From: Candidatus Abyssobacteria bacterium SURF_5
GTDB taxonomy: Bacteria; Abyssobacteria; SURF-5
Reading direction: 5' to 3'
DNA: 64,000 nt
NCBI GenBank assembly: GCA_003598085.1
Contig: QZKU01000127.1
Span: 1-64,000, forward strand
In this document: positions 5,315-11,143 of the stretch, one piece after another
Layout: every line of letters starts with the position of its first letter
How positions within the stretch are numbered: the stretch's first letter is position 1
The notes under the pieces: generated by a model
What the model saw: only the letters and a program-made list of their open reading frames with translations
Told to the model about the DNA's origin: nothing
Databases searched by the model: none
Translations under genes and position numbers: made by a program

Positions 5315-5917
5315 ATGCAGGCCGAATTTCAGAACCGGAATGTACGGTTTGACCCTGACAGCTTGTTGGAGGAATACGGCGACTACCTGTTCCGCTATGC
5401 GCTGGTGCGGGTGAGGAACCGGGATGTAGCGGAAGACATGGTGCAGGAGACTCTGCTGGCCGCCGTACGAGGGAAAGAGCAGTACCGGGGGCAGGCGTCG
5501 GTGAGGACCTGGCTGGTCGGGATAGTAAAGCACAAGATATTGGATTATTTTCGCAAGAGACAGCGGGAACACTCGTTTGATGCAACTTCCTCCGAGGCTT
5601 CGGCCGGAAACGACCTGTTTGATTCGAGCGGCAAGTGGAAAACGTTCCCATCCCATTGGAGTGAAAGTCCGGCCAAGCTATTGGAAAAGAAGGAATTCTG
5701 GGAGAAATTTGAATCGTGTATGACGCAAATGCCGGAACGGCTGGCAAATATATTCGGCCTCCGCGAATTAGATGGACTGGAGACGGCGGAAATTTGTAAG
5801 ATTCTCGACATTTCAACGACAAATTTACATGTGATGCTGTATCGAGCTCGAATGCGGCTTGCCCGCTGTCTCGATGCGAACTGGTTTGAAAGAGAACAAA
5901 GGAAAAAGGGGAAATGA
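5315..5917 (+). CDS. ECF-type RNA polymerase sigma factor
   Basis: This 200-residue protein has sigma region 2 near the N-terminus (EEYGDYLFRYALVRVRN-RDVAEDMVQETLLAA, then RTWLVGIVKHKILDYFRKRQRE) and region 4 near residues 135-185 (MPERLANIFGLRELDGLETAEICKILDISTTNLHVMLYRARMRLA). There is no sigma region 1 or 3, as expected for extracytoplasmic-function sigma factors. Its stop overlaps the start of the zinc-finger gene by an ATGA, the standard sigma/anti-sigma arrangement. No autoregulated ECF promoter could be recognised upstream. The Shine-Dalgarno (GGGAG) is rather far, about 14 nt before the ATG, so translation may be weak. Confidence 0.9.
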   Translation: MQAEFQNRNVRFDPDSLLEEYGDYLFRYALVRVRNRDVAEDMVQETLLAAVRGKEQYRGQASVRTWLVGIVKHKILDYFRKRQREHSFDATSSEASAGNDLFDSSGKWKTFPSHWSESPAKLLEKKEFWEKFESCMTQMPERLANIFGLRELDGLETAEICKILDISTTNLHVMLYRARMRLARCLDANWFEREQRKKGK

Positions 5918-6219
5918 TCACCTGTAGAGAAGTCGCTTTCCTGGCATCGGAGCAACTGGACCGGAAGCTTCCGCTGCGCCAGCGCATTAGCTTGCAAATG
6001 CACCTGCTGATGTGTCGGTATTGCCCGAGGTTCAGGCGGCAACTGCTCTTCCTGAGAGCAGCGGCTGGCTATTACGGTGAAGAGACGGATGAGGGGATTC
6101 TCTTAAAAAGGGATTCTCTCTCCACCGAGGCCAAAAAGAAAATTCGACGTGCTTTGGCGGAATCCGCCCTGTCCCCCGATAAACCCGAAGACTCATCCCC
6201 ACCGAAAAAAGATCTGTAA
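5914..6219 (+). CDS. Zinc-finger (zf-HC2) anti-sigma factor
   Basis: The 101-residue product begins MITCREVAFLASEQLDRKL and carries the His30-x3-Cys34-x2-Cys37 pattern (HLLMCRYC) of the zf-HC2 anti-sigma domain. The acidic and lysine-rich C-terminal half has no membrane segment, so it is probably a soluble anti-sigma that holds the ECF factor encoded just upstream. The two genes overlap by four bases (ATGA), implying coupled translation. The stimulus that releases the sigma factor cannot be read from the sequence. Confidence 0.85.
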   Translation: MITCREVAFLASEQLDRKLPLRQRISLQMHLLMCRYCPRFRRQLLFLRAAAGYYGEETDEGILLKRDSLSTEAKKKIRRALAESALSPDKPEDSSPPKKDL

Positions 6220-6508: not shown

Positions 6509-7775
6509 AGTACTCATTGTCACAAATACGATGACGTATTAAAGTTGCAAATTTGATCGTGGTATGGCATAATCACTTTTAGAAAAAGGGAGGTGATTAT
6601 GCCAAGAAAGAGCCCATTTAGAATTCTTCTGACCGCTGATGAGAAAAAACAGTTACAGGCGACCGCGCGTAAATATACGTCACCGTTTTGCGAAGTCATG
6701 CGTGCCAAGATTGTCCTCCTTGCCGCCGAGGGGCTGTCAAACAAGCAAATCGCCCAGCAGCTTGATTTACCCAGGCAGATCGTTTCAAAATGGCGCAAAC
6801 GCTTCTTTGACCAACGTATGGCTGGCCTGCAAGAGAAGCCGCGGCGTGGAAGGCCCAGCGCTTTTTCCCCCTGACGTCGTGGTGGCGGTCAAAGCGCTTG
6901 CCTGCCAGTTGCCAAAGGTTCTGGGGCTGCCTTTTTCCAAACTGACTCATGGCGAAATCGCCCGGCAAGCTCAAAAGCAGGGAATTGTCGCCTCTATCAG
7001 CGGGAAAACAATCTGGCGATGGCTGAGCAAGGATGCTATCCGGCCCTGGTGCTATCGCAGTTGGATATGGCCGCGTGACCCAGATTTCAAAAGTAAGGCG
7101 GCCAGTGTTCTTGATTTGTACCAAGGGATCTGGAAGAGAAAACCTTTGGGATTCAATGATTTTGTCATATCCTCTGATGAAAAGACCAGTATCCAAGCCC
7201 GGCGCCGATTGGCCCCTATCAGCGCCCCTCGGCCTGGGCGCTCTGGCCGGGTCGAGCACGAATATGAACGTAAGGGCTCTTTGGCTTACTTGGCGGCTTG
7301 GGACGTTCACCGTGCCAAGCTTTTTGGCGTATGCCGCAATAGTGCCGGTATCGACAGCTTTCGTGATTTGCTCGACCTTGTCATGCGACAGGAGCCTTAT
7401 CGATCGGCACGTCGGGTCTTTTGGATAACCGACAACGGATCGGCGCACAGGGGAGAAAAATCTGTTGATCGACTGAAACATTGGTACCCCAATGCTATTC
7501 AAGTCCATACCCCCATCCACGCCAGTTGGCTTAATCAGATTGAGATTTACTTCTCCGTGCTGCAGAGAAAGGTATTAGTCCCAAACGATTTTGAGAGCCT
7601 TGAAGACCTCGAAAACAAAATCCTCAGTTTTCAGGAACTCTACGAAAAAATTGCCAGGCCGTTCGAATGGAAATTCACCCGAAAGGATCTATTACACCTA
7701 CTACAGAGATTTAATGAAATACAAGAATTAGCCGCATGAAAATAAATACGTCACCGAATTTTCGACCCAGAGCAC
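6509..7775. mobile_element. IS630-family insertion sequence with 32-bp imperfect terminal inverted repeats
   Basis: The left end, 6509-6540 (starting AGTACTC and ending ATGACGTATT), pairs with the right end, 7745-7776, matching at 24 of 32 positions. TA dinucleotides abut both ends (6507-6508 and 7776-7777), as expected for the TA target duplication of IS630/mariner elements. The element carries one transposase in two overlapping frames. It lies between the sigma/anti-sigma locus and the secreted-protein gene at 7837, so it may have separated a former operon. Confidence 0.88.
6599..7739 (+). CDS. IS630 transposase, two frames joined by a +1 shift at CCC-TGA
   Basis: Frame one starts at ATG 6599, about 6 nt after AGGGAGG, and encodes the helix-turn-helix region (LSNKQIAQQLDLPRQIVSKW) up to a TGA at 6872-6874. 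Frame two continues with DVVVAVKALACQLPK and carries the DDE residues: Asp in SSDEKTSIQ, Asp in ITDNGSAHR and Glu in WLNQIEIYFS. At 6866-6874 the codons are TCC-CCC-TGA. A +1 slip of the CCC-bound tRNA onto CCT yields GRPSAFSPDVVV, which matches the usual unbroken IS630 sequence at this point, for a 379-residue protein. All catalytic residues are intact, so I favour a programmed frameshift over a dead gene, though a simple one-base insertion cannot be excluded. Confidence 0.82.
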
Positions 7776-7836: not shown

Positions 7837-8265
7837 ATGATTGCCAAAAGATTCCTGATGTTACTGATTGGTGTCAGTTTCATCATTCAAAGCCTTTTCA
7901 CTTCGGCATGGGCGGAAGAAGCTCAACTGCCCTTGAAAGCTGATAAGGCGCATCGTGATGCTGCGGGTATACTTTCCCTGGATCAGGATAGCATCCCCGT
8001 TAAGGCCGAAGGGCTCCGTCCAGATTCCGTCTACACCGTATGGTTTGTGAGCATGGGGCTGGTTAAACGTGAAGCCGGCGCGGGAGAAGCTCCCTACATG
8101 TTCAAGACAAATTCGGAAGGAGAGGGAACATATTCGTCCTCTCTCGACGAGTCACCGTTCGGGGAATGGGACATGGTGATGATTGTTCTCCATCCGGACG
8201 ACGACCCGACAAACATGAAAAACATGGTGGGAGCGCTTTCCGCGGATTTGCCGAAAGAAAGTTAG
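7837..8265 (+). CDS. Secreted protein of unknown function
   Basis: The 142-residue product has a strong Shine-Dalgarno (AAAAGGAGG) before the ATG and a typical signal peptide: basic MIAKR, a hydrophobic core to about residue 23, and a likely cleavage after AWA (SAWA-EEAQ). The mature part of about 115 residues is acidic, with no cysteines and no further membrane segments. The pattern (LPLKADKAHRDAAGILSLDQ, VYTVWFVSMGLV, FGEWDMVMIVLHPDDDP) looks like a small beta-rich periplasmic domain that I do not recognise. It lies downstream of the ECF sigma locus but is now separated from it by the IS630 insertion. Confidence 0.75.
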   Translation: MIAKRFLMLLIGVSFIIQSLFTSAWAEEAQLPLKADKAHRDAAGILSLDQDSIPVKAEGLRPDSVYTVWFVSMGLVKREAGAGEAPYMFKTNSEGEGTYSSSLDESPFGEWDMVMIVLHPDDDPTNMKNMVGALSADLPKES

Positions 8266-9440: not shown

Positions 9441-10361
9441 TTATTCTTTTTGCGGCTCATAGACCAGGGTTTCAGGGTGAAAGGCTTGCCAGGCAAACCA
9501 ATAACTGTAGATGCCGGTGATTTGATTCCCTTGCACGTCACGAATATCCGTCACCTGCCCATCTTGAGAAATGACGATTTCGATTGACTTATCTCCGATG
9601 GTGTCGCTGAGAATTCCGGAATGTTTCTGCACGTCCTCCAGCGAGTAGGCCTTTGCTATGCCGTCCACCTCAATGCCGAGGACCCTTTGTTTCGTCGGCA
9701 GGTCTCTGCGCACCTTGCCGACGGGAAACATCAGGCTTCCGATCCGCAGGTAACCTTCATACGGGTCCACGAAATAGTTTCTTTCATACCCGGTTTCTGT
9801 TGACATGACCTCCGTTTCCGGATGCTTTTTCTTCCAATCCTTCCATTTTGTTTCGGTTGAAGGGATTTTCATCAGGCTCTTTCCGACAAGTGGTCCCGCT
9901 ATCGCCTTCTCCATAAGCTGGGACCAGAGCGTATCAGTCTGACGATCATAGAGGAGCAGATTGCTTTTATGCAACAGTCCAGATACCCCAAATGTGTAGG
10001 TCTTGTCATCGATAATGCGGGAGTAGACCACTCCCGTCTGGGTCAGCGGTCAAAAAGTGACAACGATGGGCTGCCCACTCAGCGTATCATTCACCACCTC
10101 ATGCCAGTTCATGATCTTGATTGGATACGCCTTTGCTTTGCCCTCTATTTCGACCCCGATCACGCGATCGTCGGGTTCCAGAAAATCGACGTCATCGGCG
10201 GAGACAAACTTCGGGGCCAGAAGCGACGGAATACCGTCTTTGGGCACGCCGCCGGAGACAATTTCTTCCTTCGGAACAATGGCGTTATCCAGGCTGAAAC
10301 CTGTTGTCGCGAGTAACGCGCAGGCTGTAAGGACAGAAATCAATACTCTCTTGACGGCCAA
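9441..10361 (-). CDS. DUF3179 selenoprotein (UGA-encoded selenocysteine)
   Basis: Two adjacent frame-matched segments form one 306-residue DUF3179 protein if the TGA at 10052-10050 is read as selenocysteine (residue 104). The first part begins at a TTG (10361), 9 nt after GGAGG, with a hydrophobic N-terminal export signal and the motif MNWHEVVNDTLSGQPIVVTF. Then comes the UGA, and the frame continues PLTQTGVVYSR and TFGVSGLLHKSNLLLYDRQT. In DUF3179 proteins this position is normally a conserved Cys (VT-Y/F-C-P-L), so UGA replaces Cys exactly. A hairpin of bacterial SECIS form follows at the right distance (see separate entry). There is no frameshift, only the UGA. The function of DUF3179 is unknown; a periplasmic redox role is inference. 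Confidence 0.9.
10018..10036 (-). promoter_or_regulatory. Bacterial SECIS element of the DUF3179 gene
   Basis: On the coding (minus) strand the UGA is followed by 13 nt, then CGGGAGU, loop GGUCU, then ACUCCCG: a perfect 7-bp stem (10036-10030 with 10024-10018). The loop begins 20 nt after the UGA. The E. coli fdhF SECIS presents the same GGUCU apical sequence 18 nt after its UGA, and SelB recognises the G-U of that loop. The stem lies inside the coding sequence, as bacterial SECIS elements must. Confidence 0.88.
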
Positions 10362-11143
10362 TCAGCATTCCCTCCTTTTTTCAGATACTCTGTCACGCCG
10401 AATGACTCAACGGCAAGCAAAGAAATTTCCGCCGTTTCTGCTGAAAGATGCAGCAAAGCCGCAACCAAAGCAAATCCTGCTATCCCGACTGTTTCAATTT
10501 ACGCCCGAATCACACGAATGAAGTTCCGCTGAGCGTGGCCAGCTTGTGCGCTAACGCTCAGTAAGAAGAGGAAGCTTGAGATGACCACGCGAGACGCGTG
10601 GCAGGCATGGCTGTGCCGCGTATTCTGGATTCCTGCTTTCGCAGGAATGACGAAAAGAAGGGACTTCCTTCGTGTAACTCGTCAAATTCGAAATTCGTGT
10701 TCCAAGAGGTTGGTTGCGGCTTTGTCGCGCTGTGGCCTCTGCGCCTTTGCGGTTCAATGAATTTTTCAGTATCCGCCGACAGTTTTCTCCGAAATGGACA
10801 AGCTACCTTGGAGAAGACTGATCAAACCTCAAGAATTTGAAATTGAATAGCATAGATAGGCGAGTCATAATGCGATCAATTCCCTCGAGCATGCACTTTC
10901 TCCGGCTAGCGGTTTTCCCGATCCGGGGTTATTTTTATTCACCTGGCCGGACGTTGGGGAAAGCTTCCTCTCCTTTTTCAATCCTGCTGGTTTTGAAGCC
11001 AAACACCAAGATTGGGATGGAACGATTTGAGCCATCAACCAGGTGGCCGACGACATAATCGAACCCGGCTGACGCCTTTCGTGAAAAAGCTTTTCGAGCG
11101 ATTCCTGGCGTGGCAGAGAAGATGACAAAGTGAGGACTGTGAT
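10362..11143. other. Long intergenic region with dispersed-repeat-like sequence
   Basis: About 780 bp without a convincing gene. It holds an inverted repeat CTGAGCG/CGCTCAG (10529-10535 and 10555-10561), a perfect 8-bp hairpin at 10629-10648, and low-complexity sequence of the type often scattered in genomes (CTCTGCGCCTTTGCGG near 10740). Several open frames of 70-98 codons cross it on both strands, but none has a known motif or a ribosome binding site. Confidence 0.45.
10629..10648. repeat. REP-like palindrome
   Basis: ATTCCTGC-TTTC-GCAGGAAT forms a perfect 8-bp hairpin inside GGATTCCTGCTTTCGCAGG. This is a very common dispersed intergenic repeat type in bacterial genomes. Only one copy is present in the window. 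Confidence 0.5.

Follow-up and report, generated by a model that had tools for sequence, protein, structure and literature searches.

The stretch of DNA analysed here, referred to as the window, comprises 64,000 nucleotides of contig QZKU01000127.1 from Candidatus Abyssobacteria bacterium SURF_5 and contains a DUF3179 gene whose reading frame is interrupted by an in-frame UGA, which raises the question of whether this codon marks a decayed gene or is decoded as selenocysteine (Sec). The first-pass annotation had proposed a selenoprotein gene in which the UGA is the only break and occupies the position of a conserved cysteine.

The in-frame UGA and the hairpin downstream of it

The 306-codon frame indeed contains a single stop, the TGA at codon 104, beyond which it remains open for 202 codons. 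The deduced protein matches the Pfam profile PF11376 (DUF3179) over residues 41 to 271 with 307 bits (E 1.9e-91), the curated cut-off being 27 bits, and yielded no match in NCBIfam. An alignment of 60 sequences, including the window protein, revealed that residues D42, Y79, H87, N91, G128 and D139 as well as a WFAWxAF motif are invariant. The N-terminus is probably a signal peptide as judged by eye, and residues 2 to 19 form a helix in the AlphaFold model. The column occupied by the UGA contains cysteine in 65 of the 68 non-UGA homologues in the tree described below and UGA in the closest relatives, so that both parts of the original proposal were confirmed. In the relatives L077, L079 and L093, serine or aspartate replaces Cys/Sec, and the presumed active residue is accordingly not kept by all members of the family. 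An open frame of 42 codons (window positions 10340 to 10468, minus strand), which is not known to represent a gene, overlaps the start of the DUF3179 gene by approximately 20 bases. The coordinates of the relevant features are compiled in Table 1.

Table 1. Location of the DUF3179 gene, its predicted recoding elements and associated genes (window positions unless a contig is given)
Feature	Position	Strand	Remarks
DUF3179 gene, predicted selenoprotein of 306 residues	9441..10361	minus	TTG start; Shine-Dalgarno-like AAAGGAGGG upstream, described as strong
In-frame UGA, predicted Sec104 (UPLT)	10050..10052	minus	column of the first Cys in CPLC, the motif of the family
Predicted bacterial SECIS hairpin, CGGGAGU-GGUCU-ACUCCCG	10018..10036	minus	loop bases 10029/10026 show pairwise covariation among relatives
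Core domain, residues 47-165, all-beta	9867..10223	minus	nearest solved folds Rieske-like (NirD), weak
ECF sigma factor (TIGR02943)	5315..5917	plus	neighbour common to two relatives; putative functional link
zf-HC2 anti-sigma factor	5914..6219	plus	neighbour common to two relatives; putative functional link
IS630-like DDE transposase gene	6639-7739		between anti-sigma gene and 142-aa gene
142-aa protein with N-terminal hydrophobic stretch, no known family	7837..8265	plus	neighbour common to two relatives; putative functional link
selD (L097), itself a Sec gene	G000:C42:20143-21069	minus	UGA in SGGUACK

The first-pass annotation had also specified a perfect 7-bp stem with a GGUCU loop located 13 nt past the UGA, and exactly this hairpin was found, the distance from the UGA to the loop being 20 nt. 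The isolated hairpin has a folding energy of -10.8 kcal/mol, and none of 200 shuffled sequences folded as well. The published model of bacterial SECIS elements (bSECIS) specifies a loop of 3 to 9 nt, a stem of 4 to 16 bp, a G within the first two loop positions, a spacing of 16 to 37 nt and a minimum free energy of -7.5 or lower (PMC13188914), and the window hairpin conforms to this model with its 5-nt loop, its stem length, its spacing and its folding energy. Among the 2152 TGA triplets on both strands of the whole window, the UGA of the DUF3179 gene is the only one with a 7-bp stem and GGTCT loop located 16 to 37 nt further on, and a looser rule (7 bp and a 5-nt loop of any sequence that has G at position one or two) yielded 20 sites among the window TGAs. 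A scan for further frames of the window that are interrupted by UGA and carry a SECIS-like hairpin resulted in 11 sites, none with an evident conserved context when inspected by eye, and a search with Rfam at the gathering threshold gave no match anywhere in the window, the SECIS included. When a 64-nt segment including the UGA is folded, another helix, GACCGCU with AGUGGUC (-14.3), is favoured over the SECIS hairpin. This alternative helix needs bases adjacent to the UGA, which are covered by the decoding ribosome, and it is disrupted in relatives with a CGUGU loop; in folds that begin at least 2 nt past the UGA, the SECIS hairpin is the centroid structure.

The absence of selA, selB and selC from the genome had been named as an observation that would speak against selenocysteine, but these genes and selD were all detected above the curated cut-offs in the 5.1-Mb host genome, a draft of 145 contigs that is 98.5% complete. 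The set comprises a tRNA-Sec with the anticodon tca (67.5 bits), adjoining selA (588 bits) and selB (381 bits) genes on one contig (G000:C41) and a selD gene (388 bits). The latter carries a UGA of its own within the motif SGGUACK, and the host genome therefore contains at least two Sec genes.

Conservation of the UGA and of the hairpin in related genes

A genome scan yielded 78 DUF3179 loci, 21 of which possess TGA at the equivalent codon in a UPLT context and encode proteins with 54 to 64% identity to the window protein; the more distant loci have nearly all cysteine at this position, mostly as CPLC. Additionally, DUF3179 was detected in 45 of 395 genomes sampled from the phylum of one relative, and the 42 loci read in this sample comprise 25 with TGA and 17 with Cys at the Sec column. 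Searches of the same family and the same phylum covered three genomes, among which DUF3179 was present only in the source genome. The motifs of the UGA forms include UPLT, UPLS/UPLA, UPLC, UPLV, UPSC and UAEC, and the UPLC, UPLV, UPSC and UAEC subclades with UGA are represented by the loci L112, L135, L136-L139, L140 and L141. A few UGA-form loci contain additional stops; these genes may be decayed, or their ends may be misaligned. In a Desulfosarcina relative, L090 (5040), the Sec codon is replaced by UGG, and a UGA follows a few codons further on; this gene looks decayed, although selA is present.

In a tree of 108 rows, the window protein falls into a clade of 21 rows that all carry Sec (support 99), and this clade is nested in an all-Sec group of 32 rows (support 91). 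The Sec label requires at least five changes across the whole tree, two of them forced by well-supported branches alone, a count that is approximate because the tree is a quick one with some long branches and that does not distinguish gain from loss of Sec. These sequence comparisons provide evidence for several Sec/Cys changes within the DUF3179 family. The gene selA was detected in 18 of 21 genomes with the UGA form, whereas only 7 of 25 genomes with the Cys form contain it (Fisher p 1e-4, a value that is only indicative because the genomes are related); the three UGA-form assemblies in which selA was not found are metagenome-assembled genomes and possibly incomplete.

The hairpin follows the distribution of the UGA. 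At least six of the seven stem pairs are formed in 34 of 40 UGA genes but in only 1 of 65 Cys genes, and the UPLV group contains the stem in a different register. Among the 22 UPLT genes, the covariation score of the SECIS structure is 0.230 as compared with 0.119 for shuffled alignments, with none of 500 shuffles reaching the observed value and every slid control remaining below it. Moreover, the loop positions 24 and 27, which are the third positions of two Val codons and both free to vary, are occupied in the UPLT genes by G-C (13), A-U (3), C-G (3) or G-U (2), with a single exception; in the wider set, this pair forms in 39 of 40 UGA genes versus 32 of 65 Cys genes. Since a pair between loop bases is already permitted by the published bSECIS model (PMC13188914), this observation agrees with the model and adds no new rule. 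Codons 108 to 114, at the hairpin, show the highest synonymous-codon identity of all 267 windows of seven codons (0.605, the mean being 0.383 with an sd of 0.068).

Recoding is well supported at the sequence level because the conserved UGA, the SECIS pairs with their covariation, the synonymous peak, the selenocysteine machinery and the unbroken AlphaFold model described below all point in the same direction. The window gene thus almost certainly encodes a selenocysteine protein by UGA recoding, as had been proposed initially. That the UGA is instead an ordinary nonsense mutation or a sequencing error in a pseudogene might be suspected from the draft state of the assembly with its 145 contigs and from the occurrence of decayed relatives, such as L090 and L035, the latter with an extra stop. 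This reading is, however, already contradicted because the UGA and the SECIS are conserved in relatives: the identical UGA is fixed in 21 of them and present in other subclades, the SECIS covaries and is under synonymous constraint, and the frame continues far beyond the UGA. We consider the probability of a pseudogene to be negligible. It is likewise very improbable that the UGA is read as an amino acid other than selenocysteine, since the homologous residue is cysteine, a SECIS with a GGUCU loop lies downstream of the UGA, and the genome encodes selA, selB and tRNA-Sec together with a selD of the Sec type.

Fold and predicted role of the protein

AlphaFold modelling with the 60 aligned sequences resulted in a structure with a pLDDT of 96.2 and a pTM of 0.91 that is unbroken across residue 104, Sec104 closing the strand formed by residues 97 to 104. 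The core domain alone was modelled at a pLDDT of 95, and the top four entries of a fold search with this domain are Rieske-fold proteins, namely 3c0d_C, 4aiv, 3c0d_B and 8hn2 (probabilities 0.98, 0.92, 0.85 and 0.77, respectively), all with E values of at least 0.25. The fold search with the whole protein gave no confident match (E of at least 0.04), and a sequence search of the PDB returned nothing meaningful. The CxH/CxxH motifs of Rieske clusters were not found; the alignment contains only the UPLT/CPLC motif and no second conserved Cys-His motif. Chances are about even that the DUF3179 core adopts a Rieske-like fold without Fe-S ligands. Sec104 represents the sole conserved Cys/Sec column in the 19 aligned UxxT proteins, none of which has cysteine at the second motif position, whereas 38 of the 41 other homologues do.

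In the proposed mechanism, SelB with Sec-tRNA-Sec would bind the hairpin just 3' of the UGA, and selenocysteine would be inserted at residue 104 to give a 306-residue and probably exported protein, whose selenol is the presumed redox-active group. Since the mature UxxT-clade proteins have no other conserved cysteine, the oxidised selenol would need an outside thiol for its reduction instead of a CxxC partner. Because cluster motifs are lacking and Sec104 is the only conserved Cys/Sec in the UxxT proteins, we infer that the members of this clade are exported selenol enzymes that depend on an outside thiol. A redox role of the DUF3179 selenol appears somewhat more probable than not. The protein might also be a selenoprotein as described whose selenol serves in the binding of metal or mercury instead of in redox catalysis, considering that the CxxC of the Cys form could bind metal and that MerA-like reductases are encoded nearby in relatives. 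We regard this as unlikely, as the second cysteine is missing from the UxxT clade, which is left with a single selenol, and the nearby reductases score below the MerA cut-off.

An ECF sigma gene, a zf-HC2 anti-sigma gene and the gene of the 142-residue protein are located near the DUF3179 gene in the window as well as in L019 (6410-9751) and L024 (6248-9333). Furthermore, a gene for a pyridine-nucleotide disulphide oxidoreductase (PRK06370/MerA-like) is present near the DUF3179 gene in L019, L023 and L024. Within the stretches read, the cassette is absent from most other relatives and was seen at few loci only. The sigma/anti-sigma pair and the disulphide reductase found nearby in some relatives hint at a stress-responsive redox role. 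A comprehensive picture, which we offer tentatively and regard as less likely than not, is that of a cluster-less Rieske-fold redox enzyme with a one-Sec mechanism and an external thiol, in which the selenol would occupy the place of a cluster-binding loop, together with several Sec/Cys switches, subclade-specific SECIS registers and an ECF-sigma-controlled redox cassette in some lineages.

Relation to known systems

The DUF3179 gene is prone to be mis-annotated as two proteins or as a pseudogene, although it displays all the hallmarks of a functional selenoprotein gene. With five or more state changes on the tree, the 40 UGA and 65 Cys genes constitute a natural set well suited for comparing Sec with Cys at the same active site, and the fold clue along with the single conserved selenol yields the first testable idea on the function of DUF3179.

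The doubt expressed in the first-pass annotation as to whether DUF3179 is an established family of selenoproteins was not borne out, as the family is listed with the motif UxxC/T among predicted selenoproteins (PMC9312934, PMC13188914), a listing that both reviews credit to Zhang and Gladyshev (2007, Nucleic Acids Res 35:4952). Like the known members, the window gene belongs to the Pfam family and has Sec at the motif, in the UxxT form, and a close homologue of its product (L034, 57%) occurs in an Olavius-associated Delta 1 MAG. It differs in being a new member from a phylum with three genomes in the search set. New are this family member, the evidence for several Sec/Cys changes, the weak Rieske-fold matches and the finding that Sec is the sole conserved Cys/Sec of the UxxT clade. 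The best structural matches of the core, the NirD/Rieske-fold proteins 3c0d and 4aiv, align with TM scores of 0.43 to 0.53 but share only 7 to 9% identity with it, and DUF3179 proteins carry Sec or CPLC in place of cluster motifs. The SECIS of E. coli fdhF, which follows closely on the UGA, consists of a stable stem capped by a GGUCU apical loop. The window hairpin shares this loop, its presentation on a stable stem and its position shortly after the UGA, whereas its uninterrupted 7-bp stem is unrelated in sequence and lies within a gene of another family.
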